From contig SYGM01000167.1 in assembly GCA_005799545.1 (NCBI GenBank), forward strand, positions 18,661-82,660: a DNA stretch of 64,000 nucleotides, in the 5' to 3' direction. Below are positions 4,603 to 63,062 of this stretch, piece after piece. Under the pieces are notes generated by a model. That model searched no databases. It worked only from the letters and a program-made list of their open reading frames with translations, and had not been told where the DNA came from. The translations under genes and the position numbers were made by a program. Source of the DNA: Planctomycetia bacterium (GTDB lineage Bacteria; Planctomycetota; UBA1135; GCA-002686595). Position 1 is the first letter of the stretch, and each line of letters starts with the position of its first letter.

Positions 4603-5055
4603 ATGGCCATCAAGGTGGGAGCCAACGCTCCCGATTTCACGCTCAAGACCCAAGACGAGAAGGACTGGAAGCTCTCGGATCACAAGGGCAAGAACATTGT
4701 CCTGCTGTGGTATCCGCTGGACTGGTCGCCGACCTGCGAGAAGGAGAACTGCAAGATCTCCAACGAGCCCGTCCTCGCCGGCGCCGACACCGTGGTCGTC
4801 GGGATCAGCCGCGACTCGACCTGGTCGCACAAGGCGTGGAAGAACCACTACAAGATCAAGCATGACCTCCTCGCGGATGTGATGCTCGATGTCACCAGGC
4901 AGTATGACCTGCAGCATCCCAAGGCCCCGTTCATCAGCCATCGCGCCACGGTGATCGTGGACAAGAGCGGCAAAGTGGCCTTCGTGGAAGTTCAGGAGAA
5001 CACCGGTGCCGAGCGCAACTGGGCTCCGATCCAGGCTGCTCTCAAGGCTCTCTGA
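4603..5055 (+). CDS. Thioredoxin-dependent peroxiredoxin, BCP/PrxQ type
   Basis: 150 aa, an AhpC/TSA thioredoxin fold. The peroxidatic Cys is C45 in PLDWSPTCEKENC, with Ser in place of the usual Thr of PxxxTxxC. C50 lies five residues later, the spacing of the resolving Cys in E. coli BCP, so this is predicted to be an atypical 2-Cys enzyme reducing H2O2 and organic hydroperoxides with thioredoxin. A strong ribosome site AAAGGAG precedes the ATG, and the gene ends in a classical terminator (5080-5117), so it is probably monocistronic. Cytoplasmic; no signal peptide. Confidence 0.9.
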   Translation: MAIKVGANAPDFTLKTQDEKDWKLSDHKGKNIVLLWYPLDWSPTCEKENCKISNEPVLAGADTVVVGISRDSTWSHKAWKNHYKIKHDLLADVMLDVTRQYDLQHPKAPFISHRATVIVDKSGKVAFVEVQENTGAERNWAPIQAALKAL

Positions 5056-5079
5056 CAGGCGCCACCGTCCGATTTTCAA

Positions 5080-5117
5080 CCGAAGCCTGCCCTCCATGGG
5101 CAGGCTTCGGCCGTTTT
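5080..5117 (+). terminator. Rho-independent terminator of the peroxiredoxin gene
   Basis: A perfect 12-bp stem CCGAAGCCTGCC/GGCAGGCTTCGG (5080-5091 with 5099-5110), extendable to 13 bp with a 5-nt loop, followed by CCGTTTT. It lies 24 nt after the stop codon and is the clearest terminator in the window. Confidence 0.9.
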
Positions 5118-5130
5118 CGGCCCGTGCAGG

Positions 5131-5136
5131 TACACT
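5131..5136 (+). promoter_or_regulatory. -10-like hexamer TACACT
   Basis: It lies just after the upstream terminator and 13 nt before the ATG at 5150. It matches the TANNNT hexamers seen close to many starts in the window and predicts a very short leader. Confidence 0.45.
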
Positions 5137-5149
5137 CGATGATCTCCCC

Positions 5150-8100
5150 ATGAAGCTCTCTCTCCTTGCCCTGGCGTTGCTGACCCCGCTGGCTGCTTCC
5201 CAGTCGACTTTCGTCAACTTCGAGAGCCCGCATGTGCACCCGCTGGAGCTGACCCCGGACAACCAGCGTCTGCTCGCGGTGAACACCCCCGACAATCGCC
5301 TGGAGGTATTCGATGTCACCGCCGCGCTGCCGCAGCTGGTGCTGGAGATCCCGGTCGGTCTTGATCCCGTCAGCGTTCGTGCGCGCTCTTCTTCCGAAGC
5401 GTGGGTCGTGAACGTGATCTCCGACTCGATCAGCATCATCGATCTCGCGACCGGTCATGTGAAGGCGACGCTGAAGACGCTCGATGAGCCAGCGGATGTG
5501 ATCTTCGCCGGAACGCCGGAGCGCGCCTATGTGTCGTGTGCAGGAGCGGGGAAGCTGCAGGTCTTCGATCCCGCCAACCTCGCGGCCGCCCCGGCGGAAA
5601 TCGCCATTGCCGGCGAGCAGCCGCGCGCGCTTGCGCGCAGCGCCGATGGCTCGCGCGTCTACGTGGCGATCTTCGAGTCGGGCAACGGCACCACGGTGCT
5701 CGGCGGCGGGTCCACCACCAACAACGCGACGCCTCCGAACGTCGTCAGCAATCCGGCCGGCCCCTACGGCGGCCAGAATCCTCCTCCGAACAGCGGCAAC
5801 AGCTTCAACCCGCCGATCGCCGCAGGACTGCCCACGCCGCCCCGCGTCAGCCTGATCGTCCGCAGAAACTCCGCCAACCAGTGGAAGGATGACAACAACC
5901 GCGACTGGACGAGCTTTGTCAGCGGCGCCAACGCCAGCGCCTCGGGGCGACCCGCGGGTTGGACGATGACCGACAATGACATCGGAGTGATCCAGACCGC
6001 CACGAACGCGGTGAGCTACTCGCGCAGACTGATGAACATCTGCATGGGACTCGCCGTGAATCCTGCCAACGGACAAGTGACCTTGGTGGGAACCGAAGCG
6101 GCCAACGAAATCCGCTTCGAACCCAATCTCAAGGGCAAGTTCGTGCGGGTGAATCTGGCGCGCGTGGATGCCACGGGCGCGACCACTCAGGGCATCAGCG
6201 ATCTCAATCCGCACCTGACCTACGCCGCTGCCACCGTTCCGCAGGCCGATCGCACCAAGTCGATCGGCGATCCCCGCGGCATCGTCTGGAACAGCAGCGG
6301 CACGCGCGCCTACGTCAGCGGCATGGGCTCGAACAACGTGATCGTGATCGATGCGCTGGGTGCACGCGCCGGCCTCGCGCAGACCATCGAAGTGGGCGAG
6401 GGGCCCACGGGCGTCGCGCTGCATGAGTCCGCGAGCCGGCTCTATGCGCTCAACAAGTTCGAAGGTTCCATTTCGGTCATCAGCACCGGCACGGAGCTGG
6501 AGATCGCGCGCGTTCCGTTCTTTGATCCGTCGCCTGCCGCGATCAAGCTGGGCCGCCGCCATCTCTACGGCACGCACGAGACGAGCGGTCTCGGACAGGC
6601 TTCCTGCGCCGCCTGCCACATCGATTCGCGCATGGATCGCCTGGCATGGGACCTCGGCGATCCTCAAGGAGCGATGAAAGCCACGACGGGCCAGAATGTT
6701 CAAGGCGGTGCCGGGCAGCCTTGGCACCCGATGAAGGGGCCGATGACGACGCAGACGCTGCAGGACATCGTCGGCAAGGAGCCGCTGCACTGGCGCGGAG
6801 ATCGCGCCGGGCTGGAGGAGTTCAACCCTGCGTTCGTGGCGCTCAACGGCGATGACGTCCAGTTGACGGCCGCGCAGATGCAGGAGTTCGAGAACTTTCT
6901 GGCGACGATTCACTATCCGCCGAACCCTTTCCGCAACCTCGACAACACGCTGCCGACCAATCTGGCGCTGCCGGGCCATTTCACGACGGGACGCTTTGGG
7001 CCGGCCGGCCAGCCGCTGCCCAACGGCAACGCGGTCGCGGGTCTCAATGCGTACCGCACGGCAGGGCTGGACGGCGGCATCAATTGCGTCACCTGTCATA
7101 CCCTGCCGACCGGCGTGGGCACGGACTATCGACTCGTGGGAGCGCAGTTGCAGCCTTTCCCGATCGGTCCGAACGGCGAGAATCACACCGCACTGGTCAC
7201 GGTCGACGGCTTCACGAACGTGACGATGAAGATTTCCCAGCTGCGGAACATGCACAAGAAGGGCGGCTTCAACTTCACGCAGACCTCGAACACGCAGGGG
7301 TTCGGCTTTGCCCATGACGGCAGCGTGGACTCCCTCGAGCGTTTCGTGAACGAGCCTGTCTTCAACCTGACCGGTGATCAGATGACCGCGGACATGGTGG
7401 CTTTCATGAAGGCCTTCAGCGGATCCGAACTGCCGGTGGGATCCCCGACGAACATCACGGAACCGCCCGGACCTCCCAGCAAGGATTCCCATGCCGCAGT
7501 CGGCGCCCAAATAACGATCAACGCACCCGCGCCGACGCCGGCGCTGCTGACGACGATGCTCTCGCTCGCGTCCGCCAACAAGGTCGGACTGGTGGCGAAG
7601 AGCCGCCAGGGCGGGATCGCGCGCGGTTACACGTTCATCGGAGGGAACAACTTCCAGTCCGACCGGGTTTCGCAGGTGCTGAGCGCCAGCGCGCTGCAGG
7701 CGCTGGCGACCGTCGGCAGCGAGATCACCTACACGATCGTCCCCAAGGGCAGTGAAACGCGCATCGGCATCGATCGCGATCTGGATGGGTGCTTCGATCG
7801 GGACGAGCTGGATTTGCTGTCCAATCCAGCCGACCCGGCCAGCAACTCCTGCGGCATGCTGATCGCCTACTGCTTCGGCGACGGATCCACGGCCGCGGCC
7901 TGCCCGTGTGCCAACAATGGCTCAGCGGGTCGCGGCTGTGCCAACTCGCAGCCCGGATCCACCGGAGCTCAGCTGACTTCCAGCGGCGCACCGACGCCGA
8001 ACGACACGCTGGTTCTGCAGTCCGCGGGCATGCTGCCCACGGCGACGGCCGTCTTCCTGCAAGGCAACTCCAACGTCAGCGCGGGCGTGGTCTTCGGTGA

Positions 8101-8353
8101 CGGCGTGCGCTGCGTCGGCGGCAGCCTCAAGCGTCTCGCGGTGAAGAGCAGCGTCGGAGGTGCCGCCATCTATCCCGATGCCGCCCTGAGCGAGCTTTCC
8201 ATCCGCAACCGCTCCGCAGCGCTGGGTGATCCGATTCCGGCGGGGGGCGTGCGTTACTACCAGACCTACTACCGCGATCCGAGCGTAACGTTCTGCGCCA
8301 ATCCGCCGGGCAGCACCTACAACATCACCAACGGTCTGATCGTCCAGTGGTGA
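5150..8353 (+). CDS. Exported YVTN-type beta-propeller fused to a di-haem (MauG/CCP-like) cytochrome domain and C-terminal secreted-protein domain
   Basis: 1067 aa. The start is the ATG at 5150, giving a clean signal peptide (MKLSLLALALLTPLAAS); the longer in-frame ORF would run through the terminator. Residues about 20-470 are propeller repeats (NTPDNRLEVFDV, LATGHVKATLKT, GEGPTGVALHES). Two CxxCH haem sites follow, C486-A-A-C-H490 and C646-V-T-C-H650. With a LGRRHLYG opening and an ISQLRNMHKKGGF...AHDGS segment, this matches the di-haem peroxidase/MauG layout. Residues about 905-1067 are a Cys-rich domain beginning YCFGDGS...CPCANNG and ending LIVQW, seen in many planctomycete exported proteins. 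A periplasmic or surface redox role is inferred; the substrate is unknown. Confidence 0.8.
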   Translation: MKLSLLALALLTPLAASQSTFVNFESPHVHPLELTPDNQRLLAVNTPDNRLEVFDVTAALPQLVLEIPVGLDPVSVRARSSSEAWVVNVISDSISIIDLATGHVKATLKTLDEPADVIFAGTPERAYVSCAGAGKLQVFDPANLAAAPAEIAIAGEQPRALARSADGSRVYVAIFESGNGTTVLGGGSTTNNATPPNVVSNPAGPYGGQNPPPNSGNSFNPPIAAGLPTPPRVSLIVRRNSANQWKDDNNRDWTSFVSGANASASGRPAGWTMTDNDIGVIQTATNAVSYSRRLMNICMGLAVNPANGQVTLVGTEAANEIRFEPNLKGKFVRVNLARVDATGATTQGISDLNPHLTYAAATVPQADRTKSIGDPRGIVWNSSGTRAYVSGMGSNNVIVIDALGARAGLAQTIEVGEGPTGVALHESASRLYALNKFEGSISVISTGTELEIARVPFFDPSPAAIKLGRRHLYGTHETSGLGQASCAACHIDSRMDRLAWDLGDPQGAMKATTGQNVQGGAGQPWHPMKGPMTTQTLQDIVGKEPLHWRGDRAGLEEFNPAFVALNGDDVQLTAAQMQEFENFLATIHYPPNPFRNLDNTLPTNLALPGHFTTGRFGPAGQPLPNGNAVAGLNAYRTAGLDGGINCVTCHTLPTGVGTDYRLVGAQLQPFPIGPNGENHTALVTVDGFTNVTMKISQLRNMHKKGGFNFTQTSNTQGFGFAHDGSVDSLERFVNEPVFNLTGDQMTADMVAFMKAFSGSELPVGSPTNITEPPGPPSKDSHAAVGAQITINAPAPTPALLTTMLSLASANKVGLVAKSRQGGIARGYTFIGGNNFQSDRVSQVLSASALQALATVGSEITYTIVPKGSETRIGIDRDLDGCFDRDELDLLSNPADPASNSCGMLIAYCFGDGSTAAACPCANNGSAGRGCANSQPGSTGAQLTSSGAPTPNDTLVLQSAGMLPTATAVFLQGNSNVSAGVVFGDGVRCVGGSLKRLAVKSSVGGAAIYPDAALSELSIRNRSAALGDPIPAGGVRYYQTYYRDPSVTFCANPPGSTYNITNGLIVQW

Positions 8354-12763: not shown

Positions 12764-15016
12764 GTGAATACAGGCAGGCATGGCAGGCTTGCCCCGCTCG
12801 CACTCGCGCTGGCCTTGGCAGGCTGCGCAGGTGGCGGGTCAGGGGCAGAGGAGCAGGGACCGCTTCCCAGCGCGGGAGAGCATGCGATTCTCTTCTGCAC
12901 GCAGGTTCCCAACCCGCAGGATTTCACCACGATCACATCGACGTTTGGCAACCATCTGCCGGGTGTCGGAGCCGCGCCGCGCGGCGGCGATCTGTACATC
13001 CGCTACGCCGACGGCACGCTCAAGAACCTGACGCAGGCCGCCGGCTTCGGAATGGAGGGCCTGCAGGGCGCCCAGTCGATCGCCGTCCGCGAACCCTGCG
13101 TGCACTGGTCCGGCAACAAGGCGCTCTTCAGCATGGTGATCGGCGCTCCGGCGCAATTCGAGCAGGAGAGCTCGCGCTGGCAGATCTACGAGATCAGCGG
13201 GCTTGGCCGCGACGAAGTGCCGGTCATCACGCACGTTGCCAACCAGCCTGAGCAGTACAACAGCATCAGCCCGATCTACGCCAGCGATGACACGATCCTC
13301 TTCACGTCGGATCGGCCGCGCAACGGGGCGCAGCATCTCTATCCCCAACTCGATGAATACGAGGAAGCGCCGACCGTCACGGGGATCTGGAAGCTCGATC
13401 CGCTCACGGGTGCCCTGGAAATCCTCAACCACGCGCCCTCGGGTGCGTTTTCGCCCAGCATCGACAGCTTCGGTCGCGTGATCTTCACACGCTGGGACCA
13501 CCTCGTGAGGGATCAGCAGGCGGATGATGACAACATCTGCAACTGTGATCAGTTCGGCACGTTCAACTACACGAGCGAAGCCGCCGATGCCGTCTCCACA
13601 GGCAACAACGACGAGGTCTTCCCTGAGCCGCGTCCGCAGTGGCTGGGCTTCGTTGGCAATCAGATGCCCGGCTATTTCGGCGAACTTAACGGTTACCAGC
13701 CGCATCTGGTCGGATCCGAGGTCAACCACTTCTTCCCCTGGATGATGAACCAGAACGGGACGGAGGAGGAAACCCTCAACCACATCGGACGTCACGAACT
13801 GCACAGCTACGTGCCGCTCGTGCGTACGGATGATCCGGCCATCGTGTCGCATCTGGGATTCACTCCTTTCACCGCCAACGCCAACCCGGTCAACAACATC
13901 TTCCAGATCCGCGAGGATCCGCTCGTGCCAGGCAGCTACTTCGCGATCCATGCGCCCGAGTTCTTTACGCACGGAGCCGGGCAGGTGATCCGCCTCGACG
14001 GGCCGGCGGGCATGAACGCGGATTCGATGACGGTGGATTACGTCACGCATCCCGACACCGCCAATTTCGATGAGACGCCAGGTGTCCAGCACAGCGGCAT
14101 GTACCGCTCCATCCTGCCGCTCTCGAACGGGGATCGGGTCGTCGTGCATGCCGATACCACCCGCGAGGCCGGCAACGACGGTTCCGGCGGCGTCATCGAT
14201 CCTGTGTACAAGTTCCGCCTGAAGCTGCTGGTCGCGGAGGGCAACCATCACGTGGCCGGGGCCGCGCTCACCGCCGGCATCGTGAAGAACGTCTCCTGGT
14301 ACAGTCCCAACGAGCTTCTGACCTACAACGGCCCGCTGTGGGAGCTGTGGCCGGTGGAAGTGGTTGCGCGTCAGGCCCCTGCTCCTTCCATGCCGGCTCT
14401 GGCTGCGCCGGAACAGCAGGTCCTTGCGGAGGAGGGCGTCAGTCTGGCCTCGCTGCGCAGCTTCCTGCGCACGAACAATCTCGCGCTGATCATCAGCCGG
14501 AATGTGACGCGACGGGATCGCAACGACCTGCAGCAACCCTTCAATCTGCGAGTCGAGGGCGGCGGCGTGGAGACCGCGGTGGGCACGGGTGCCGTGTACG
14601 ATATTGCGCATCTGCAGATCTTCCAAGGCGATCAGATCCGCGGACTGACGATGGGCGGAGCGCAACCGATCGCAGGACGCCGCGTGCTGGCGCAGCCGAT
14701 GCACGATGCGGGGGCCACGAGCCGCAACCCTTCGACGCTCGGTGCGCCCGAGGGCAGCGTGCGCATCGCCGCCGATGGTTCGATGGCGGCACTGGTGCCG
14801 GCCAAGCGCGCGCTCAGCTGGCAGTTGACGGACTCAGCGGGCGAGCCGGTGGTGCGTGAGCGCTACTGGCTGACGTTCCAGCCCGGGGAAATCCGCACTT
14901 GCGCGGCCTGTCACGGTTTCTCCAGCGCGGATCAGAGCGGGAACGCGACGCCGATGAACCCGCCGGCCGCGCTCGGGGATCTGCTGCAGCATCTCAAGGA
15001 CACGGGCGAGCTGTGA
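12764..15016 (+). CDS. Haem c lipoprotein, hydrazine-synthase-alpha-like propeller family (paralogue 1)
   Basis: 750 aa. The GTG start at 12764 has GGGAG upstream and gives a lipoprotein signal with lipobox LAGC, followed by Gly/Ser-rich sequence. The body is a TolB-like propeller (ILFTSDRPRNG, LYPQLDEYEEAPTVTGIWKL, FGRVIFTRWDHLVRDQQADD). Near the C-terminus is one haem c site C713-A-A-C-H717 in RTCAACHGFSSADQ. Overall the layout resembles the family annotated after the middle domain of anammox hydrazine synthase alpha, but that enzyme's other subunits are absent here, so hydrazine chemistry is not implied. A very similar gene follows directly. Expected location: outer face of a membrane. Confidence 0.75.
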   Translation: MNTGRHGRLAPLALALALAGCAGGGSGAEEQGPLPSAGEHAILFCTQVPNPQDFTTITSTFGNHLPGVGAAPRGGDLYIRYADGTLKNLTQAAGFGMEGLQGAQSIAVREPCVHWSGNKALFSMVIGAPAQFEQESSRWQIYEISGLGRDEVPVITHVANQPEQYNSISPIYASDDTILFTSDRPRNGAQHLYPQLDEYEEAPTVTGIWKLDPLTGALEILNHAPSGAFSPSIDSFGRVIFTRWDHLVRDQQADDDNICNCDQFGTFNYTSEAADAVSTGNNDEVFPEPRPQWLGFVGNQMPGYFGELNGYQPHLVGSEVNHFFPWMMNQNGTEEETLNHIGRHELHSYVPLVRTDDPAIVSHLGFTPFTANANPVNNIFQIREDPLVPGSYFAIHAPEFFTHGAGQVIRLDGPAGMNADSMTVDYVTHPDTANFDETPGVQHSGMYRSILPLSNGDRVVVHADTTREAGNDGSGGVIDPVYKFRLKLLVAEGNHHVAGAALTAGIVKNVSWYSPNELLTYNGPLWELWPVEVVARQAPAPSMPALAAPEQQVLAEEGVSLASLRSFLRTNNLALIISRNVTRRDRNDLQQPFNLRVEGGGVETAVGTGAVYDIAHLQIFQGDQIRGLTMGGAQPIAGRRVLAQPMHDAGATSRNPSTLGAPEGSVRIAADGSMAALVPAKRALSWQLTDSAGEPVVRERYWLTFQPGEIRTCAACHGFSSADQSGNATPMNPPAALGDLLQHLKDTGEL

Positions 15017-15021
15017 GTCCA

Positions 15022-15036
15022 CGGGCATCGTGCCCG
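15022..15036 (+). other. Short hairpin between the two haem lipoprotein genes
   Basis: CGGGCA-TCG-TGCCCG, a 6-bp stem with a 3-nt loop, 5 nt after the stop of the first paralogue. There is no U-run, so it may be a processing or stability hairpin rather than a terminator. Confidence 0.4.
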
Positions 15037-15106
15037 CGGTTCAAGAAACGCTCGCCCGTCAACCGACATCTCTCTCGGCAGTTTGCGCATCACAGAGGAG
15101 GTGAGC

Positions 15107-17350
15107 GTGAGGGGAGAGATTGCATGTGTGTGCTTGATTGTGCTCGGTTCCTGCGGCGGCGGTGGCTCGGGGGGCGATGACGGCTCGGCGGAGCCGTTGG
15201 CCCTGTTGGGCGGCAACCCCATTCTGTTCTGCACGCAAACGCCGAATCCGGTGGACTTCACGACGATCGCGTCGAGCTTCGGCAACCATGGCAGCAGCGT
15301 GGATGCCTGTCCGCGGGGGGGTGACCTGTGCATTCGCTACCCGAACGGGACCGTACGCAAGCTGACGGCCCTGGCGGGTTGGGGGCAGGGTGGCCAGCAG
15401 GGCGCGCAGTCGATCGCCGTTCGCGAACCCTGCGTGCACTGGTCGGGCAACAAAGCGCTCTTCAGCATGGTGGTCGGATCGCCGGGACCCGGCGAGGCGG
15501 ACACCTCGCGCTGGCAGATCTACGAGGTCTCGGGTCTTGGCATCAACGACACGCCGCTGATCACTCGAGTCGCCAACCAGCCGGAGGAGTACAACAATAT
15601 CAGCCCCATCTACGGAAGCGATGACTCGATCCTGTTCACTTCCGATCGTCCGCGCAATGGACGGGCACACCTCTACCCGCAGCTCGATGAGTACGAGGAG
15701 GTACCGACGGTTACGGGGATCTGGAAGCTCGATCCGGTCAGCGGGGATCTGCACATCCTGAACCACACGCCGTCCGGCGCCTTTTCTCCCTGCATCGACA
15801 GCTTCGGACGCGTGATCTTCACGCGCTGGGACCATCTGGTGCGCGATCAGCAGGCCGATGACGACAACATGTGCCAATGCAACCAGTTCGGCACCTTCAA
15901 CTACACAAGCGAATCGGCGGATGCGATTTCGACGGGCAACAATGACGAGGTGTTTCCTGAGCCTCGTCCGGAATGGCTTGGCCATGTGGGCAGTCACATG
16001 CCCGGCTACAGCGGCGAAATGAACGGCTACCAACCCCACCTCACAGGTTCGGAGGTCAACCATTTCTTCCCGTGGATGATGAATCAGGACGGCTCAGGCG
16101 AAGAGACGCTCAATCACATCGGACGCCACGAGCTGCACGCCTACATTCCGCTCGTGCGCGTGGATGACCCCAATATCGTCTCCCAGCTTGAGATCGGCCC
16201 CTTCTCGGCCAATCAGACGGCGATTCCGCACTGGTACCAGCTGCGCGAAGACCCGAATGACCCCGGGAGTTACTTTGCGATCCACGCGCCGGAGTTCTTC
16301 ACGCACGGAGCGGGTCAGGTAGTCAGGATCCACGCGCCGCCGGGACTGGAAGCCGATGACGTCACAACCCAGATGCTGACGCATCCCGACACGGCAAATT
16401 ACGACACGACGCCCGGCACGAACCACAGCGGGATGTACCGCAGCATCCTGCCGCTGACCAACGGCAAGAAAGTCGTTGTCCACGCCGCCACGGCGCAGCC
16501 CGCAGGCAATCTCGGTAGCGGCAACGTGATCAACCCGGTCTACAAGTTCCGTCTGCGCGAACTGCAGCTGGTCGGCAGCTGGTACAAGGCCGGTGCCGCG
16601 TTGACACGCGGCATCACGAAGAGCGTGTCGTGGTATCGCAACGGACAGCTGATGAGCTTCCAGGGTGCGCTGTGGGAGCTGTGGCCCGTGGAGGTCGCAG
16701 CACGGGCGGTGCCTCAGCCGACTGCCGTGCCGCTGGAGCAGCCTGAGCAGCAGATTCTCGACGAAGAGGGTGTCAGCAGCGCGACCCTGCGAGCCTTCCT
16801 GCGCTCCAAGGGCCTCGCGCTGATCGTGAGCAGGAACGTCACGCGCCGCGACCGCAACGATCTGCAGCAGCCTTTCAACTTGCGTGTCACGGAAGGCGGC
16901 GTGCAGACGATCGCCAAGCCAGGACGCGTGTACGACATCTCGCACCTGCAGATCTTTCAGGCCGATCAGATCCGCGGCCTCACGATGGGCGGCAGCGAGC
17001 CGATTCCGGGCCGCCGCGCGCTTGCGCAGGCATTGCACGACCCGACTGCGCTGGCACACAATCCTCCGGATCCCAACGGTCCTTCCGGAAGCGTGCGAAT
17101 CGCTGCTGATGGTTCCATGGCCGCGCTGGTGCCGGCGCGGCGAGCTCTCAGCTGGCAACTGACGGATCCCATGGGCGAACCCGTGGTGCGCGAGCGTTAC
17201 TGGCTGACGTTCCAGCCCGGAGAGATCCGCACCTGCGCCGCCTGTCACGGCTTCTCCAGCGCGGATCAGAACGGAAACGGGGTGCCGCGCAATCCGCCGC
17301 AGGCTCTGGGAGAACTCCTGCAGCATCTCAAGGACACGGGCGCGTTCTGA
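15107..17350 (+). CDS. Haem c lipoprotein, hydrazine-synthase-alpha-like propeller family (paralogue 2)
   Basis: 747 aa, a tandem paralogue of the preceding gene with long identical stretches through the whole length, including HWSGNKALFSMV, FGRVIFTRWDHLVRDQQADD and QPGEIRTCAACHGFSSADQ. Start GTG 15107 is chosen because AGGAGG ends 5 nt upstream and it gives a short lipoprotein signal MRGEIACVCLIVLGSC; the TTG at 15083 and GTG at 15101 are alternatives. The haem site is C710-A-A-C-H714. It lacks some N-terminal spacing of paralogue 1 and has extra Cys in the first blade region (CPRGGDLC). Probably exported to the same compartment; it may be co-transcribed or separately expressed. Confidence 0.75.
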   Translation: MRGEIACVCLIVLGSCGGGGSGGDDGSAEPLALLGGNPILFCTQTPNPVDFTTIASSFGNHGSSVDACPRGGDLCIRYPNGTVRKLTALAGWGQGGQQGAQSIAVREPCVHWSGNKALFSMVVGSPGPGEADTSRWQIYEVSGLGINDTPLITRVANQPEEYNNISPIYGSDDSILFTSDRPRNGRAHLYPQLDEYEEVPTVTGIWKLDPVSGDLHILNHTPSGAFSPCIDSFGRVIFTRWDHLVRDQQADDDNMCQCNQFGTFNYTSESADAISTGNNDEVFPEPRPEWLGHVGSHMPGYSGEMNGYQPHLTGSEVNHFFPWMMNQDGSGEETLNHIGRHELHAYIPLVRVDDPNIVSQLEIGPFSANQTAIPHWYQLREDPNDPGSYFAIHAPEFFTHGAGQVVRIHAPPGLEADDVTTQMLTHPDTANYDTTPGTNHSGMYRSILPLTNGKKVVVHAATAQPAGNLGSGNVINPVYKFRLRELQLVGSWYKAGAALTRGITKSVSWYRNGQLMSFQGALWELWPVEVAARAVPQPTAVPLEQPEQQILDEEGVSSATLRAFLRSKGLALIVSRNVTRRDRNDLQQPFNLRVTEGGVQTIAKPGRVYDISHLQIFQADQIRGLTMGGSEPIPGRRALAQALHDPTALAHNPPDPNGPSGSVRIAADGSMAALVPARRALSWQLTDPMGEPVVRERYWLTFQPGEIRTCAACHGFSSADQNGNGVPRNPPQALGELLQHLKDTGAF

Positions 17351-19387: not shown

Positions 19388-19989
19388 TCGGCATCCTCCG
19401 CGTTGGCCGCGGCGGTCTGCAGCACATCCTGAACCAGCGGATGTTCGCGGTCGAGTCGAATGCCTGTGACAGGGAATTCAGGCTGCTTGGGATTGGGAAC
19501 CTTGTGCATCACGATGATGCCGGCATCCGTGGCTTCCTGTATCAGGCGCCGCGGCATGTCCGGATCGAACGCCCAGGCAAACCCGCGCTTCTGCAGGTAG
19601 GTGTCGCGGAACCACTTGAGTGCGATGAAGGACAGATGCGGGTCGCGTTCGGCGTGATCGAGCGCGATCACGAAGTCCACCATGGGCTCACCCGTGCCCG
19701 GATCGGTCTGCATGTTCTCCTGCTGCGGCACCTCGTAGACCACCCAGACCGCGGAATTGCGGGGCTGAAAGGAATCCAGCGGCTGATTGCGCCGCAGTTG
19801 ACGGCCGCTCTCGCGGGCCCGCAGCGAGACATGCACGCTCGAGCCGTCCGGCGGCGCGATGTGGAGCAGCGGTTGCAAGGAAACCGGAAGCCTGCCCATG
19901 CGCTCCAGTTCGCGCAGCGACTCCAGAGCTCCCTGAACCTCGAACTCCAACTGGGCAATGGTCGCGGGCGGGACGCGATGCTGGTTCAT
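19354..19989 (-). CDS. Conserved cytoplasmic protein of unknown function (211 aa)
   Basis: No membrane segment or signal. The sequence has features of a well-folded alpha/beta protein (VWVVYEVPQQENMQ, PMVDFVIALDHAERDPHLSF, IALKWFRDTYLQKRGF, and a basic, proline-containing end). I do not recognise the family. The start is ATG 19989 with no convincing ribosome site. It converges on the HupE-like gene, overlapping it by 34 bp, and is divergent from the DUF1592 gene. Confidence 0.65.
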   Translation of the reverse strand: MNQHRVPPATIAQLEFEVQGALESLRELERMGRLPVSLQPLLHIAPPDGSSVHVSLRARESGRQLRRNQPLDSFQPRNSAVWVVYEVPQQENMQTDPGTGEPMVDFVIALDHAERDPHLSFIALKWFRDTYLQKRGFAWAFDPDMPRRLIQEATDAGIIVMHKVPNPKQPEFPVTGIRLDREHPLVQDVLQTAAANAEDADQASSTRENAQ

Positions 19990-20128
19990 ACAAGGTTATG
20001 CGGTGATAAGCAGCGGACAGGCGCAGCGCGTTGCGGACGCACAGCGACGGAAGAACACGGAGAACTTTCCCATGCTACCCGGGAATCCAGATCCCGCCAC
20101 TCCCCCCGCAGGGGATATTCTGAAAGCA

Positions 20129-22291
20129 GTGATCTCCCTGGCCCTTCTGCTGCTTTGGTCCGGCGACGTGCTGGATGCGCGCGCACAGTCACTCGTGCGC
20201 CGGCACTGTCTAGAGTGTCACGCCGGCGCACAGGCCAAAGCAGAGCTGCGTTTCGATCTGGAGCAGCCGGGGGCGGGGCTGGATGCCGCTGCATGGCGTG
20301 AAGCATGGACACGCGTTCACGCCGGGGAAATGCCGCCGCGCAAGCATGGCGTGCTCCCGCCGGACGATCGGAAACTCCTACTGGAGCTTGCTGTGACGCT
20401 CGCCGGGCAGGGCGAGGAGCGCTCCGTGCTGCGCAGGCTCTCACGCCGCGAGTACGAGAACACCGTGCGCGACCTGTTCGGGATCGTATTCGATGCCCGA
20501 GAGCACTTTGCGCCCGATGAAATCGGTGGGGGCTTCGACAATCAAGGTGCCGCGCTCTCGCTCAGTGAGGCCGACTTCGAGCGCTACCTGCAGGCGGGTG
20601 AGCGTGTGGCGGCTGCCGCGATACAGGTACGCGATCCCGGCGCGCCGAACCATCAGCGCGTGCGCGCGGAAGCCATGGACGGCGGTGCGTTGCGACACGA
20701 CGTGCGGACACTCTCCAGCAACGGTCAGATCCGCGCCAGCTTCCGCATCGAAGCGGAAGGGCGCTACCGCGTGCGCGCGCGTTGCTTCGGCACCCAAGCC
20801 GGTCCGGATCCTGTGCGCTGGGCGATGTCTTCGGGTGGTCGCGAATTCGCGCGAGGCGCCACAAGGGCCACGCTCAAGCAGCGCGAAGAAGTGATGGGCG
20901 AGCTGACCCTGACGACCGGCTCGCGTAGCATCGAATTCGCGTTCCTCAACGACTACTACAAGCCTGACGATCCCGATCCGCGGCAGCGCGATCGCAACTG
21001 TCACCTTGAGTGGATCGAAATCGAAGGCCCGCTCGATCCGCCGCGCTACTCTCCGTACCAGAGCGCGGCGCTGGCGGATCTGGGGGAGTCCAATCTGCGC
21101 AGCAAGCTCGCAGCGCTGGCAACGCGCGTGTGGCGCGGCCCCGTCAGTTCATCCGATATGGATGCGCTGCTGGCGCTGACGAACGCCGCACATCGTCCCG
21201 TGGAACGCATGCGCTCGGCTCTGGCGGCCATGCTGGCGGCGCCGCGCTTCGTGTTCCGGGTCGAAACAGATCCGGAATCCGCCGCGCCCGGCAGCCTGCG
21301 CCGGCTGAACGGCCATGAGCTCGCGGTCAGGCTTTCCTATCTGGTGTGGGGCAGCTTGCCCGACGATGTGCTGCTGCAGCGCGCTGCCGATGGATCGCTG
21401 CTCAAAGATGAGGTGCTGGAGGCGGAGCTTGCACGCATGCTGCGCGACCCGCGGGCTTCCGAGCTCTCGCGCAGCTTCGCGCTCCAGTGGCTGCAGCTTG
21501 AGGCGCTCGGCAATCATGCGCTGGATGCTGGGCTTCGTGAGTCAATGCTGGCAGAGACATCGCTGCTCTTTGAGTGCGTGCTCCGCGAGGAGCGTCCGAT
21601 CCGCGAGTTGTTGTGTGCGGAGTACAGCTTCATCGACGAACGCCTGGCTGCGCTTTACGGGATGGCTCTGCCGCGCGGTCCGGGAATGCAGCGTGTTGCC
21701 TTGCCTGCCGGCGATCGGCGCGGGGTGCTCGGACATGCCAGCGTGCTGACCGTGACGAGCAACCCGACGCGCACGTCACCGGTCAAGCGCGGCAAGTGGG
21801 TGCTGGAAGTGCTGCTCGATGCGCCGCCGCCACCCCCTCCGCCAGGCGTGGGAGTGCTGACGGAGGCGGATGCCACCGGCGCGCAGCTGCCCATGCGCGA
21901 GCAATTGGCACTGCATCGTTCCAAGCCGGAATGCGCGGTGTGTCACGACCGCCTCGATCCGCTGGGATTGGGCCTCGAGAACTACGATCGCATGGGCCGG
22001 ACGCGCAGCGCGGACGAAGGCGGCCTGATCGACGGTGCCGGCGCGCTTCCGGACGGGCGTGCGTTTCACGGAGTCGGCGAGATGGCTCAGTTGCTGGCTT
22101 CCGATGGTGCGCTGGCCCGCTCGCTCGCCCGCCACCTGATGACCTGGTCGCTGGGGCGTTCGCTCAGCGTCGCCGAACGAGCCGCGCTGGAGCAACGCAT
22201 GGCGGCGCTGGATGCGCAGCAACTTACGTTGCCCGGGCTGTTGAGAGCGATCGTGCTCTCGGAGCCGTTCCGAACGAAGCGAGTGGAGTGA
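20129..22291 (+). CDS. Planctomycete-type cytochrome protein with DUF1587/DUF1592/DUF1588/DUF1585 domains
   Basis: About 720 aa. A signal peptide (MISLALLLLWSGDVLDARA) is followed by a haem site C27-L-E-C-H31, then RRLSRREYENTVRDLFG (DUF1587 start), a carbohydrate-binding-like insert, and PFAM-type DUF1592, DUF1588 and DUF1585 blocks containing a second CxxCH (PECAVCHDRLDPLGLGLENY). The GTG at 20129 is chosen because TATTCT (20116-20121) ends 7 nt before it and the signal peptide is then compact; ATG 20072 with a weak GGAG is the alternative. This gene is paired with a DUF1552 gene starting 2 nt after its stop. Such pairs occur widely in Planctomycetes and are proposed, not proven, to act in exported polysaccharide or redox degradation. 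Confidence 0.85.
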   Translation: MISLALLLLWSGDVLDARAQSLVRRHCLECHAGAQAKAELRFDLEQPGAGLDAAAWREAWTRVHAGEMPPRKHGVLPPDDRKLLLELAVTLAGQGEERSVLRRLSRREYENTVRDLFGIVFDAREHFAPDEIGGGFDNQGAALSLSEADFERYLQAGERVAAAAIQVRDPGAPNHQRVRAEAMDGGALRHDVRTLSSNGQIRASFRIEAEGRYRVRARCFGTQAGPDPVRWAMSSGGREFARGATRATLKQREEVMGELTLTTGSRSIEFAFLNDYYKPDDPDPRQRDRNCHLEWIEIEGPLDPPRYSPYQSAALADLGESNLRSKLAALATRVWRGPVSSSDMDALLALTNAAHRPVERMRSALAAMLAAPRFVFRVETDPESAAPGSLRRLNGHELAVRLSYLVWGSLPDDVLLQRAADGSLLKDEVLEAELARMLRDPRASELSRSFALQWLQLEALGNHALDAGLRESMLAETSLLFECVLREERPIRELLCAEYSFIDERLAALYGMALPRGPGMQRVALPAGDRRGVLGHASVLTVTSNPTRTSPVKRGKWVLEVLLDAPPPPPPPGVGVLTEADATGAQLPMREQLALHRSKPECAVCHDRLDPLGLGLENYDRMGRTRSADEGGLIDGAGALPDGRAFHGVGEMAQLLASDGALARSLARHLMTWSLGRSLSVAERAALEQRMAALDAQQLTLPGLLRAIVLSEPFRTKRVE

Positions 22292-22293
22292 AC

Positions 22294-23619
22294 ATGACAC
22301 GCCGGAGTCTGGATCGACGAACTGTTCTCCGCGGTGCGGCCGTGACGCTTGCGCTGCCCTGGCTGGAGGCGATGCTGCCCAACGGAAGACTGGGTGTGCG
22401 CGCTCAGCAGGCCTCGCCGCCTGCTCCCCGCCGTGCGGTCTGGGTCTACGTGCCCAATGGTCTCGCTCAGCAGCCGCTCAAGGCCGCCGCGGGATTCCAG
22501 CTGCAGGGCGCGCTGGCACCGCTGGCGCCGCTCTCCTCGTCGGTGCTGCTGATTCACGGATTGGCTCAGGATGCTGCGCGTGCCCACGGTGACGGGCCGG
22601 GGGACCATGCGCGCGCCTGCGCTGCGTTCCTGACGGGAGTTCACCCGCTCAAGAAGGACGGTGCGGTGCTGGTGGGCGCTTCTGCCGACCAGCTGGCTGC
22701 GCAGCAGATCGGCAACCGCACGCGTCTGCGTTCGCTGGTCGTGGGCGCCGAGGGCAGCAACACTTCCGGCCAGTGCGACTCGGGTTACGCCTGCGCCTAC
22801 TCGAGCCAGTTGTCCTGGGCCGGACCTTCAACGCCGGCGGGCAAGGAGCACCGGCCGATGCGTGTGTATGAGCGTTTGTTTCTCGACGAGGAGGATCCCG
22901 CTTTCCTCGAAACCATGGCCGAGCGTCGTGCGCGTCGCCGCAGCGTGCTGGACTTCGTGCGCGGCGAAGCCAGACGCCTCGAACAGCGTCTCGGTCAGGC
23001 CGATCGGCAGAAGCTCGAGGAGTATCAGGACGGCATCCGGGAACTCGAGCGTCGGCTGGAGCGCATGCAGCAGGGCGAACAGCAAGCGCGCGCGCTGCCT
23101 GCGCCGCCCAAGGATGCGGAGAAGAACTATCCCGAGCTGGTGCGGGCGCACTACGACCTGATCGCCATGGCTCTGGCCACCGATTCCACGCGCATTGCCA
23201 CCTTCCTGCTCGCGAATGAAGGCTCCAACCGCGGCTATCCGCACCTTGGGATCCCCGAAGGCCACCATGAGCTCTCGCACCACGGCAAGGATCCCCACAA
23301 GCTGACCCAGTGGGAAAAGATCGGCGCATGGCATGTGGATGCGTTCGCGGCCTTCCTGAAGCGTCTGACCGAGCTGCGCGAGGGCGAGAGCAGCGTGCTG
23401 GACAGCACGATGGTCCTGTTCGGCAGCGCGATCGGCGACGGCAACCGCCACAACCACGACCAGCTGCCGATTCTGCTGGCGGGCGCGGTGCGCGGCGGTC
23501 GCGAAGTCGAGTTTGCGCAGGAGACCTCACTCAACCGGCTGCACCTTGCGATGACCGCCTACACGGGGGCATCACTGCCCCGTCTGGGCGATGCGGACCT
23601 GCCGCTCGATCTGGCCTAG
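22294..23619 (+). CDS. DUF1552 protein with Tat signal
   Basis: 441 aa. A twin-arginine signal (SLDRRTVLRGAAVTLALPW) starts it, so it is exported folded, probably with a bound cofactor or metal. The core matches DUF1552 (PAPRRAVWVYVPNGLAQQ, DHARACAAFLTGVHP, HHELSHHGKDPHKL and a terminal MVLFGSAIGDGNRHNHDQL). A central charged coiled-coil region lies around residues 215-270. The spacing of 2 nt from the DUF1592 gene implies translational coupling. Its TAG stop overlaps the stop of the opposite-strand exonuclease gene in one CTAG. Confidence 0.9.
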   Translation: MTRRSLDRRTVLRGAAVTLALPWLEAMLPNGRLGVRAQQASPPAPRRAVWVYVPNGLAQQPLKAAAGFQLQGALAPLAPLSSSVLLIHGLAQDAARAHGDGPGDHARACAAFLTGVHPLKKDGAVLVGASADQLAAQQIGNRTRLRSLVVGAEGSNTSGQCDSGYACAYSSQLSWAGPSTPAGKEHRPMRVYERLFLDEEDPAFLETMAERRARRRSVLDFVRGEARRLEQRLGQADRQKLEEYQDGIRELERRLERMQQGEQQARALPAPPKDAEKNYPELVRAHYDLIAMALATDSTRIATFLLANEGSNRGYPHLGIPEGHHELSHHGKDPHKLTQWEKIGAWHVDAFAAFLKRLTELREGESSVLDSTMVLFGSAIGDGNRHNHDQLPILLAGAVRGGREVEFAQETSLNRLHLAMTAYTGASLPRLGDADLPLDLA

Positions 23620-57926: not shown

Positions 57927-60900
57927 ATGAAGGCCCTCCCTGCGCTGCTGTCCTGCGTTCTGCCTTTCGTTTTCGCCGCTTGCGAGATCACGGGGCCGCG
58001 GCCCGTGCCCGTCACCCAGCCGGTATTCGAGCGTCAGCAGCTTTCCGGCAGCTTCTTCGCCGAAGGCGGCGCGTTTGCGGATCTCGATCGCGATGGATTT
58101 CAGGACGTCATCGCAGGCACATGCTGGTGGAGAGGACCTGAGTACACAGAGAAGCACGAACTGCTGGCTGAGAAAACCTACGATCCATTCGGCTACTCCG
58201 AGCACTTCTTCGCCTGGCCGATGGATGTCGATGCGGATGGCTGGATCGATCTGGTGACGGTCGGCTTTCCGGGCGAAGCAGGGCATTGGTTGCGCAATCC
58301 TCGAGGTGCGGAAGGGTACTGGGAGCGCTTCGTGATCCACGACCACGTGGACAACGAGTCACCGGCGTTCATCGACATCACGGGTGACGGGGTGGCGGAG
58401 CTCGTCTGTCAGGACGGCCAGTACTTCGGCTACGCCCAGCTCGATCCCGCGCAGCCTCGGGCGCCATGGCGCTTTCACCGCATCAGCGCCGCCATGGATG
58501 GGCTGGGCCGTTTCACGCACGGACTGGGCGTGGGCGACATCGACGGCGATGGACGCGCGGATGTGTGCTGGCGCGAAGGCTGGTTGCGTCAGCCGGAGTC
58601 GCTCGAAGGCGACCCGGCGTGGGCCTACACGACCTTCCGATTTTCGACGCAGGAAGGCGGCGCGCAGATGCTCATCACCGATGTGGACGGCGACGGCTTC
58701 AACGACATCGTGACCAGCCTCGCTGCCCATCATTTCGGTCTGTCGTGGTTCCGCCAGGTTCGCGACGGTTCGCAGATCGGCTTTGTCGAGCAGAAGGTGA
58801 TGACCGACAAGCACGAGGACAGCGCCGCGCAGATCAGCTTCTGCGAGCTGCATGCGCTGGCACTCAGTGACGTCAACCGCGATGGATTGGCGGATGTCGT
58901 CACGGGCAAGCGCTGGTGGTCGCACGGTCCGGACGGTGACTGCCAGCCGGGAGCGAAGTCGGTGACCTACTGGTACGAGTTGGTGCGCGAGCGGAACGGC
59001 GCGCGCTATGTGCCGCACCTCGCCGATGATGAGAGCGGTGTGGGGACGGCCGTGACCGTCGGCGACATCGACAAGGACCAGGATCAGGACATTCTCGTGG
59101 TCAACAAGCGCGGCGTGTTCGTGCTGTGGCAGCGCACGGCAGCCGAGCTGGAGGGGAAGTCCGCGCCGCGCCGCATCGTCACGCTCGATTTCGAACGGGG
59201 TGATCTGTTCGGCTGGACGGCCACGGGCGAGGCCTTCACCGGACAGCCTGTGCGCGGCGACACCGTCACGGCGCGCAAGCGCGAAGCCAGCCGCCATCAG
59301 GGCCAGTATTGGATCGGCGGCTACGAGCGCGTCGGGGACAAGGCAACCGGGAGGCTGATCTCGGATCCCATTCCCGTGACCGCGCCCTGGGTGAGCTTCC
59401 TCGTGGGCGGCGGCGGCAATGAGGAAACGCGCGTGGAGCTGCGCAGCGTTCCCGACGATGCGCTGCTGCACAAGACCGGCGGCGCCGACTACGAGTCCCT
59501 GCAGCGCGTGGCCTTTGACGTCTCGGCGCAGGTGGGCAAGGAGCTGCGCGTGGTGCTGATCGATGAGCACACGGGGCATTGGGGGCACATCAACTTCGAC
59601 GATCTGCGCTTCCATGCGGAAAAACCGGCGCTGGAGCGCTCCGAGGACACGCCGCCGATCCTCGCGCTCGATGCCGTGCCCAATGCCGGCCTCGCGCCGG
59701 AGGCCGCGCGGGCGGCGATGAGCACGCTGCCTGGCTTTGCGGTGGATCTGATCGCGGCGGAGCCGCGCGTGCACCAGCCCGTGGCATTTGCTCTGGATGC
59801 CGCGGGCCGTCTTTGGGTCGCCGAGGCGCATACCTATCCCGTGCGGGCGCGCGAGGGTGAAGGCAAGGATCGCATCGTCGTATTCGAGGATCGTGACGGC
59901 ACCGGTGACTACGAGACCCGCACCGTTTTTCTCGAAGGTCTCAACCTTGTCAGCGGCATCGAAGTTGGTTTCGGCGGCGTGTGGATCGGCGCCGCACCGC
60001 AGTTGTTGTTCGTGCCGGATGCAAACGATGACCTGGAGCCGGACGGTCCGCCGATCGTGAAGCTGGACGGTTGGGGCTACGAAGACACCCACGAGACTCT
60101 CAACTCGTTCCGCTGGGGACCGGATGGCTGGCTTTACGGCTGCCACGGAGTGTTCACGCACAGCCGCGTGGGCAGGCCCGGCAGCAAGGATGCCGAGCGC
60201 GTTGCGCTCAACGCCGGAGTCTGGCGCTACCACCCGACGCGTGAGGAATTCGAGGTGTTCGCCTGGGGCACTTCGAATCCCTGGGGTCTCGACTATGATG
60301 CGCAGGGCGAGCTCTTCATCACGGCATGCGTGATTCCGCACGCCTATCACGTGATTCAGGGCGGCCGCTACATTCGGCAGGCCGGTTCGCACTTTGATGC
60401 GCACGTCTATCGCGAGCTTGACACGATCGCGGATCACCGCCACTGGACGGGCGCCAATCCCTGGGCCGGCAACAACCGCTCCGGTGATTTCGGCGGCGGC
60501 CACGCGCATGCAGGCGCGCTGATCTACCAGGCGACGGCCTTCCCTGAGGAGCATCGGGGCGCGCTGCTGATGAACAACATTCACGGCAACCGCATCAACA
60601 GCGATCGGCTGCAGAAGAGCGGCTCGGGCTTCGTCGCGAGCCATGGGCCTGATCTTCTGCTGGCGAACGACAAGTGGTTTCGCGGCATCGCCCTGCAGCA
60701 GGGACCGATGGGTGAAGTCTTCGTGATCGACTGGTATGACGCGCAGGCCTGCCACCTCAACGACCCGGCGCGCTTCGACCGGGGCAACGGGCGGATTTAC
60801 AGGTTGCGTCACGGCGAGTGGAGCCGGCCGCGCGTCAAGCTCAGCGTGCTGGCCTCGCGCGAGCTGGCCTCGCGCATCGCGGATCCCAATGCATGGGCGG

Positions 60901-63062
60901 CACGCCACGCCCGCCGCATCCTTCAGGAGCGCGGCATCGGCCCCCAGCTGGTCGCGCAGCTCGAAAGCCAGATCGAGGACAAGGCCGGCAGGCAGCGCCT
61001 GGAGTCGCTGTGGACGCTGCAGGCCGCCAAGGGAATTCCGGAAGCGCGTCTGCGCGTCTGGTTGCGCGATGCTGATGAGGCGCTCGCGGCCTGGTGTGTG
61101 CGATTCGTCTGCGAAGATCGAACCATCGAGCCCGAGACGCTCGCAGCCTGCGTCGAACTCGCGCAGAGCTCCGCTTCGCCACGGGTCCGACTGGCGCTCG
61201 CCAGCGGCGCTCAGCGACTGCCTCTGGCTCAACGCAAGCCGCTGGTGGAGGCTCTCAGCCTGCGTGCCGAGGATGACAAGGATGCGAACATTCCGGCCGT
61301 GCTGTGGAGCGCGGCGGAGCCGCTTGTGGCGCTCGATGTGCAGTCGGCACTCGCCACCGCCATGCAATCGCGTCTCGGCGATCTGCGTCGTTTCATCGTG
61401 CGTCGTGCCGCTGCGGATCCCGCGCTGCATGAGGGCCTGTTCGCATTCCTCTCTGCGCGCACCGCAGCGGCGGATTGGAACTGGATGCTGCCGGAAGTGC
61501 AGCAGGGTCTCGCGGAACAGCGCGGCTTGCGCGCGCCGGAGAGCCTCGCCGCTTTCCTGAAGCGGCTCGCAGCGCAGCCGGAATGGTCCGAGACTCGCGA
61601 GCGGCTGCTGCTGGCCTTCGGCGACACCAGCGAGCTGCCGCGCCTGCGTGAGCGCGTGCAGGATTCGACGGTGGATGCGAAGGCGCGTCGCGACGCGCTG
61701 GAAGCGCTGGTCGCGGCCAAGGACCGCGAGACGGAAGCCCTGCTGCCTCGGTTGCTGCACGACCCCGCCCTGACTCAGACCGTGCTGCGCGCGTGGTCGG
61801 GCTTTGCATCGGCTGGCGTGCTGCTCGATCAATACGAGCAGATCCCCGCGGAATGGCGCGCCGAGGCGGTACGCACGCTGGCGGAGCGTCCCGACATGGG
61901 CGAGCGTCTCGTGTCGGCGCTGGAGAGCGGCAAGCTCGCCCGTGCCGATCTGGATGCGATCGCCGCGACCCATCTGCACGCTGGTGCCGGCCCGGATTTG
62001 CGGGCGCGGCTGGAGCGCGCGTGGGGCCGTGTCCGTCAGCCTGGCGCCGAAGCGGCCTCACGCGTTGCCGAGTGGAAGACGCGCCTGTCTGACGCGGTGC
62101 TGGCTCAGGCCGACCTCGCGCGAGGACGCGAGGTCTATTCGCGAACCTGCCAGAACTGTCACAGTCTGTTCGGTCGCGGTGCGAAGCTCGGCCCCGAGCT
62201 GACGGGCTCCAATCGCGCCGATCTCGACTACCTGCTGACCAATCTGATCGATCCCAGCGGCGTGGTGGGGCAGGACTATCAGGCGACACTGGTCTGGACC
62301 GAGGACGGACGCTTCTACAACGGCCTGCTGCGATCCGAGACGGACAGCAGTCTCACAATGGAAAACGAACGCGAGCGCATCACGCTCGACAAGCAGGAGA
62401 TCGAGAAGCGGGAACTCTCCAGCCATTCGCTGATGCCGGAAGGGCAGCTGGAAGCCCTGGGCTTCGAGGAGGCGCGCGACCTGATCGCGTACCTGCGCTC
62501 GCCGGTGCAGACGCCGATCCGGGCCACGCGCTTGAACGCAAAGGACTTCTTCGACAGCACCACATTAACCGGTTGGAAGGGAGATGGCGTGTCCTGGCGT
62601 GTCGAAGCCGGCCAGCTCGTCGGCAGCACGAGCGGCCTCGCGCGCAATGAGTTCCTGATCGGCGAGCTGGAGCTGGGTGATTTCCGCTTCAGCGCGGATG
62701 TGCAGCTGCTGCGCGACGAGGGCAACAGCGGGATCCAGTTCCGCTCGATGGAGCTGCCTGATCGTGAAGTGATGGGCTATCAGGCCGACATCGGCCCGGG
62801 TTGGTGGGGCAAGCTCTACGAGGAGCATGGCCGGGGGCTGCTGCACTCGAGCTACGATGCCAGCCACTTCGTGCCCGGGGCCTGGCATCGCTACGAGGTC
62901 GAAGCGCGCGGATCGCGCGTGCGCACCTGGATCGACGGCCAGCTGTGCGTTGATCTGGAGGATGCCGAGGGGCGGCGCCGCGGCGTGATCGCCTTCCAGC
63001 TGCACTCGGGTCCCGCGACGGAATTGCGCGTGCGCAATCCGCGCGTCGAGATCCTCGACTAG
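57927..63062 (+). CDS. Giant lipoprotein: FG-GAP repeats, PVC propeller, HEAT repeats, haem c and DUF1080 domains
   Basis: 1711 aa. Lipoprotein-type signal (LPFVFAAC, C19). FG-GAP/VCBS repeats with D-x-D-x-D-G motifs fill about residues 48-400 (DLDRDGFQD, DVDADGWID, DIDGDGRAD). A galactose-binding-like domain covers about 410-570. From about 600 to 960 a PVC-type propeller (PVAFALDAAGRLWVAEAHTY, SNPWGLDYDAQGELFITAC) resembles sorbosone/glucose dehydrogenases. HEAT-like helices cover about 980-1330. A cytochrome c-type domain has C1408-Q-N-C-H1412 in TCQNCHSLFGRGAKLGPELT. Residues about 1530-1711 are DUF1080 (3-keto-glycoside hydrolase-like; SGIQFRSMELPDREVMGYQA). It may oxidise or bind sugars outside the cell. 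Such fusions are typical of Planctomycetes. Confidence 0.85.
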   Translation: MKALPALLSCVLPFVFAACEITGPRPVPVTQPVFERQQLSGSFFAEGGAFADLDRDGFQDVIAGTCWWRGPEYTEKHELLAEKTYDPFGYSEHFFAWPMDVDADGWIDLVTVGFPGEAGHWLRNPRGAEGYWERFVIHDHVDNESPAFIDITGDGVAELVCQDGQYFGYAQLDPAQPRAPWRFHRISAAMDGLGRFTHGLGVGDIDGDGRADVCWREGWLRQPESLEGDPAWAYTTFRFSTQEGGAQMLITDVDGDGFNDIVTSLAAHHFGLSWFRQVRDGSQIGFVEQKVMTDKHEDSAAQISFCELHALALSDVNRDGLADVVTGKRWWSHGPDGDCQPGAKSVTYWYELVRERNGARYVPHLADDESGVGTAVTVGDIDKDQDQDILVVNKRGVFVLWQRTAAELEGKSAPRRIVTLDFERGDLFGWTATGEAFTGQPVRGDTVTARKREASRHQGQYWIGGYERVGDKATGRLISDPIPVTAPWVSFLVGGGGNEETRVELRSVPDDALLHKTGGADYESLQRVAFDVSAQVGKELRVVLIDEHTGHWGHINFDDLRFHAEKPALERSEDTPPILALDAVPNAGLAPEAARAAMSTLPGFAVDLIAAEPRVHQPVAFALDAAGRLWVAEAHTYPVRAREGEGKDRIVVFEDRDGTGDYETRTVFLEGLNLVSGIEVGFGGVWIGAAPQLLFVPDANDDLEPDGPPIVKLDGWGYEDTHETLNSFRWGPDGWLYGCHGVFTHSRVGRPGSKDAERVALNAGVWRYHPTREEFEVFAWGTSNPWGLDYDAQGELFITACVIPHAYHVIQGGRYIRQAGSHFDAHVYRELDTIADHRHWTGANPWAGNNRSGDFGGGHAHAGALIYQATAFPEEHRGALLMNNIHGNRINSDRLQKSGSGFVASHGPDLLLANDKWFRGIALQQGPMGEVFVIDWYDAQACHLNDPARFDRGNGRIYRLRHGEWSRPRVKLSVLASRELASRIADPNAWAARHARRILQERGIGPQLVAQLESQIEDKAGRQRLESLWTLQAAKGIPEARLRVWLRDADEALAAWCVRFVCEDRTIEPETLAACVELAQSSASPRVRLALASGAQRLPLAQRKPLVEALSLRAEDDKDANIPAVLWSAAEPLVALDVQSALATAMQSRLGDLRRFIVRRAAADPALHEGLFAFLSARTAAADWNWMLPEVQQGLAEQRGLRAPESLAAFLKRLAAQPEWSETRERLLLAFGDTSELPRLRERVQDSTVDAKARRDALEALVAAKDRETEALLPRLLHDPALTQTVLRAWSGFASAGVLLDQYEQIPAEWRAEAVRTLAERPDMGERLVSALESGKLARADLDAIAATHLHAGAGPDLRARLERAWGRVRQPGAEAASRVAEWKTRLSDAVLAQADLARGREVYSRTCQNCHSLFGRGAKLGPELTGSNRADLDYLLTNLIDPSGVVGQDYQATLVWTEDGRFYNGLLRSETDSSLTMENERERITLDKQEIEKRELSSHSLMPEGQLEALGFEEARDLIAYLRSPVQTPIRATRLNAKDFFDSTTLTGWKGDGVSWRVEAGQLVGSTSGLARNEFLIGELELGDFRFSADVQLLRDEGNSGIQFRSMELPDREVMGYQADIGPGWWGKLYEEHGRGLLHSSYDASHFVPGAWHRYEVEARGSRVRTWIDGQLCVDLEDAEGRRRGVIAFQLHSGPATELRVRNPRVEILD

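Follow-up and report, generated by a model that had tools for sequence, protein, structure and literature searches.

As far as we are aware, the alpha subunit of hydrazine synthase (HZS-alpha) was long thought to be unique to anammox, and the question raised by this locus is what two adjacent genes of HZS-alpha type encode in the genome examined here. The window, which is the whole stretch of 64,000 nucleotides that was analysed, carries the gene pair as follows.

12764 to 15016, plus strand: copy A, 750 aa, predicted exported lipoprotein (lipobox LAGC) with a TolB-like beta-propeller and an HZS-alpha middle domain
14900 to 14914, plus strand: CAACH of copy A, residues 713-717, its sole c-haem attachment site, which aligns with haem alphaI of HzsA
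15017 to 15106, plus strand: gap between the copies, 90 nt up to the likely GTG start of copy B
15107 to 17350, plus strand: copy B, about 747 aa, predicted exported lipoprotein (lipobox LGSC), 73% identical to copy A
17234 to 17248, plus strand: CAACH of copy B, its sole c-haem attachment site, matching the position of that of copy A in the alignment

Both open reading frames are intact, and the two products share 73% identity over 716 residues in an ungapped BLASTP alignment, far above chance, including the common block FGRVIFTRWDHLVRDQQADD. The translations contain exactly one CxxCH per copy, in each case CAACH close to the C-terminus, and their N-termini are unlike each other, each with its own lipobox. 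These observations agree with the initial annotation, which had described two adjacent lipoproteins of about 750 aa with long identical blocks, a single C-terminal CAACH and differing signal-peptide regions. The open reading frame of copy B opens at a TTG at 15083 (15083-17350, 755 aa); the GTG at 15107 has an AGGAGG ahead of it and is more likely to be the start. A promoter was not recognised at the gene pair, and since the gap between the copies has no intrinsic terminator that we could find, co-transcription is plausible. The genome search recovered copies A and B as the only proteins of the source genome that match the Pfam HZS_alpha family (PF18582).

We observed that both copies belong to the HZS_alpha superfamily. 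PF18582 matched copy A at 40.7 bits (E 3.5e-10, residues 664-717) and copy B at 38.3 bits (E 2e-9), against a curated gathering cut-off of 26.6 bits, and it matched all 36 members of the one-haem family that were scanned (E up to 0.05). The AlphaFold model of copy A, computed from an alignment of 36 family members, was confident (pLDDT 87.5, pTM 0.88), and its best Foldseek matches in the PDB were 5c2v_D and 5c2v_A (E 3e-18 to 7e-18, the best being 3.2e-18), over about 810 alignment columns with a TM of 0.48 and an rmsd of about 9 A, a loose superposition. The next matches were S9 peptidases and TolB at 1e-6 or worse (TolB 8e-6); HZS-alpha outranks TolB by twelve orders of magnitude and any other propeller by 11. 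Neither copy A nor the family profile found a relative in sequence searches of the PDB, so 5C2V was reached by fold comparison only. When the family was compared with true HzsA by hhalign, 55 columns around the haem were aligned at low probability, and because this direct comparison is short and weak, two-haem HZS-alpha-like proteins of planctomycetes were taken as the intermediate. The family aligns with these over 481 columns that span the propeller and the haem domain (E 3.5e-24, probability 99.6), and a further profile comparison, of the two-haem proteins with true HzsA, covers 541 columns (E 6.8e-34). The link is real, and the TM of 0.48 together with the 55-column direct alignment makes the relationship a distant one.

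The opposite reading, in which the proteins would be generic TolB-like propellers whose CxxCH arose by chance, the HZS_alpha label being an annotation artefact, could draw on the fact that the PF18582 match in the window proteins covers only profile positions 44-97 of 98, and on the PD40 propeller repeats matched in 10 of the 36 family members. It is contradicted by the Foldseek ranking, by a CxxCH that is invariant in 84/84 members, one per member, and by the 481-column alignment with the two-haem profile, and we find it scarcely credible. The assignment to an HZS-alpha-like family in the initial annotation, which named a missing HZS_alpha profile link or a generic TolB propeller as grounds for giving it up, is thus upheld: PF18582 passes its cut-off, 5C2V is the best fold match and HZS-alpha leads the Foldseek search.

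Membership of the superfamily leaves the question of which functional residues of HzsA are kept. The CAACH of the copies aligns with the CxxCH of haem alphaI in HzsA, where His587 of the motif binds zinc, together with Cys303, and Tyr591 binds the haem iron (PMC12758564, PMC12607021). The Tyr591 position, four residues after the CxxCH His, is occupied by Ser in both copies and by T, S, D, E, Q or K in all 84 one-haem family members, with Tyr in 0/84; ten anammox-clade HzsA sequences have Tyr there. No Cys column outside the CxxCH exceeds 20% occupancy among the 84 members, and the equivalent of Cys303 is not kept; this residue is absent in Scalinduaceae too (PMC12758564). As a second CxxCH is absent and only about 33 residues follow the haem site, alphaII is missing in copies A and B. 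The comparison of ligands that had been proposed for this pair consequently gives a divided result, the CxxCH at alphaI being kept and Tyr591 and Cys303 being lost. Judged by their residues, with Tyr591, the conserved Cys and alphaII all gone, the copies are not hydrazine synthase alpha, in line with the earlier expectation of a role other than hydrazine synthesis. The simplest inference is that the His of CAACH would be free to ligate the iron canonically, as in an ordinary c-type cytochrome, with haem attachment and ligands being predicted from the motif.

Whether the setting is one of anammox was examined in the source genome (3.4 Mb, 203 contigs, 77% complete). It lies in the same phylum as genomes with true HzsA, one member of which (L039) matches 5C2V_A with 1590 bits. 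In this 77% complete assembly we found neither HZS-gamma (hydrazine_gamma, NF052341; 0, compared with 3-4 per anammox control) nor a protein of HAO/HDH type (Multi-haem_cyto), for which the anammox controls were positive. Since the phylum is shared with HzsA carriers and no anammox genes were found, the pair sits in a genome of the anammox phylum that is itself non-anammox. The claim that the pair stands outside an anammox context therefore holds for the genes of the genome, with the reservation that its host shares a phylum with anammox bacteria. The related claim, that beta/gamma genes and anammox neighbours are lacking, stands as far as HZS-gamma and Multi-haem_cyto are concerned and has to be qualified for one gene of beta-gamma shape in the window.

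5006 to 8353, plus strand: protein with a beta-propeller and a di-haem CCP_MauG domain, an HZS beta-gamma layout according to domain matches, 4.4 kb upstream of the pair

This gene brings in a cryptic HZS-like complex, in which the alpha-like proteins and the 5006-8353 product would act on NO, hydroxylamine or a related nitrogen compound. Its beta-gamma layout, and the report that alpha and beta-gamma homologues lie close together in other bacteria (PMC12758564), speak for such a complex. The matches themselves are weak: the product scores 59.7 bits against the HZS beta-gamma fusion model, whose cut-off is 1250, falls far below the beta cut-off too, and matches 5c2v_B at E 3.9e-6, while its propeller is much closer to a surface-layer protein than to HZS-beta. 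Between this gene and the alpha-like pair lie three genes of the opposite strand, the beta-gamma-shaped gene occurs in 41/61 relatives as against 4/61 for the alpha-like gene, and no homologue of it lies near the other family loci (0/83). On account of this distribution, the intervening genes, the lack of nearby homologues and the surface-layer-like propeller, the product was rejected as a partner; the gene is near the alpha-like pair and probably not its partner. As the alpha-like copies also lack Tyr591 and alphaII, we consider an HZS-like complex very improbable. Residues about 952-1115 of the 5006-8353 product (about 165 residues, YCFGDGS...CPCANNGSAGRGCANS) have at least 11 further copies in the genome at 54-61% identity, and occur in several relatives as well; this C-terminal part is probably a sorting or anchoring domain.

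Beyond this genome, the contig scan confirmed 375 stretches that encode the one-haem family, and the best 80 of the 375 include Chloroflexota, Acidobacteriota, Verrucomicrobiota, Pseudomonadota (including methanotrophs), Planctomycetota, Deinococcota and Bacteroidota among their phyla. In the phylum sample the family was found in 8/392 genomes, and a PF18582 protein of any kind in 77/392. Some planctomycete families were seen to harbor a dozen or more PF18582 proteins per genome (e.g. G095, G200, G214, G322 and G363), a large expansion. In the domain tree, which rests on few columns and is limited in its finer resolution, the one-haem family forms a single clade with 100/100 support, to which neither HzsA nor the two-haem proteins belong; the phylogeny with HzsA suggested in the earlier work thus returns a separate clade. 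The one-haem clade is sparse across many phyla.

The family loci display no conserved gene neighbourhood, as clusters recur solely in close relatives such as Methylovulum and Chloroflexi. Cytochromes lie near family members at 9/80 loci, and the genes that neighbour the pair in the window (ilvE, HupE, PSD and others) are not found again at the other family loci, where the sole cross-match is a weak, rhodanese-like one at L069. Elsewhere in the window, a PSD/PSCyt multi-domain cytochrome protein adjoins a DUF1552 (HXXSHH) protein at 19958-23619, and a 1711-aa protein at 57927-63062 combines FG-GAP repeats, DUF7133, a cytochrome c domain and a 3-keto-disaccharide hydrolase domain.

The reading that we favour with moderate confidence is that the pair are tandem duplicates within a one-haem, apparently stand-alone subfamily of HZS-alpha and encode an envelope-anchored redox protein. 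The products would be exported and lipid-anchored in the envelope, each with a TolB-like beta-propeller and, behind it, an HZS-alpha middle domain holding a single c-type haem, whose iron would be bound by the CAACH His, unlike in HzsA, and with the second haem absent. Many charged residues and His are near-invariant across phyla, for example H223, H246, H340, D197, E198, E200, D245, D250, E272, E336, R584, R639 and R640, which suggests a fixed, polar and possibly active pocket, presumably near the haem. Such a protein could face the periplasm or sit in the outer membrane and act on a small molecule, as a redox enzyme or in electron transfer, and it would do so without HZS beta-gamma partners. 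A non-redox role, e.g. binding or scaffolding, may also apply. If the propeller were only a scaffold and the haem, performing no chemistry itself, relayed electrons from one envelope protein to another, the protein would be a pure electron-transfer cytochrome, which would fit the one CxxCH with its free His, the lipid anchor and the lack of a conserved partner enzyme; we think this rather doubtful, as dozens of invariant charged residues and His in the propeller and the segment before the haem exceed the needs of a scaffold, and no partner operon is conserved.

As regards the origin of the gene pair, copies A and B are sisters in the family tree, with dN 0.22 and dS 1.04 between them (NG86), and the pair is a lineage-specific tandem duplication. 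Conserved columns are altered at 6/206 in copy A and 5/206 in copy B, each keeping about 97%, and both copies look functional and under purifying selection. Among the loci with called open reading frames, tandem pairs are rare, and beyond the window only L067 has a second nearby copy. At that locus, in a Pedosphaera genome, the second copy (L067:4271-6751) follows immediately on an intact family member and is apparently frame-broken. That the second copy of the window is redundant or serves gene dosage only, rather than a different condition, is a real possibility to which we give somewhat less than even weight: the intactness of both copies, their conserved columns and the rarity of tandem pairs are compatible with it, whereas an amino-acid divergence of 27% and a dS of about 1 imply that both copies have been retained for long and so favour some difference in how they are used. 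Tuning of the two versions to different conditions, put forward in the initial annotation, is a conjecture that these data neither strengthen nor weaken.

In the literature, homologues of HZS-alpha outside anammox were described in 2025 as clades I-IV, in which Tyr591 and Cys303 are not kept, and of which clades II and III have neither alphaII nor the C-terminal 100 residues (PMC12758564). These homologues lie close to beta-gamma homologues, and those of clades I-III also near FG-GAP proteins (PMC12758564). It has also been suggested that hydrazine-synthase-like enzymes form a broader family whose members use other substrates (PMC10732223). The novelty of the present family is modest, since non-anammox homologues without Tyr591 and Cys303 were already published (PMC12758564); a partial literature search found no published description of a stand-alone one-haem clade. 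Our data indicate that many phyla, and a few cultured bacteria among them, such as Methylovulum miyakonense (L089) and Sulfidibacter corallicola (L048), have a pared-down version of the alphaI haem fold that lacks the Tyr ligand, alphaII and beta-gamma partners, and that annotation with PF18582 does not indicate anammox. A bolder view, which we judge unlikely, would make the family widespread stand-alone one-haem enzymes in which the HZS-alpha fold, a His-ligated haem and the polar pocket serve a reaction, as yet undescribed, on some small compound of nitrogen or carbon; if true, it would show what the HZS-alpha fold did outside anammox.

Compared with HzsA of Kuenenia (PDB 5C2V/5C2W), its best fold match, the pair shares the order of propeller and PF18582 middle domain and the CxxCH at alphaI, but differs in having neither Tyr at His+4, nor a conserved Cys outside the CxxCH, nor the alphaII haem domain, in consisting of lipoproteins, and in being encoded without hzsB or hzsC. 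The two-haem planctomycete proteins (L010-L028) resemble it over both the propeller and the haem domain, with a common CxxCH position and a ligand position that is not Tyr, whereas a second CxxCH domain and their grouping with HzsA in the tree set them apart; several of them are fused to FGE-sulfatase (sulfatase-modifying) or F5/8-type C domains, which hints at polysaccharide-related roles. With clades I-IV (PMC12758564) the one-haem family has in common its non-anammox setting and the loss of Tyr591 and Cys303, and with clades II and III also that of alphaII, but it has no beta-gamma or FG-GAP neighbours; it may fall inside one of these clades, for instance clade II or III. The one-haem family is a tractable comparison for the function of the fold without hydrazine chemistry.
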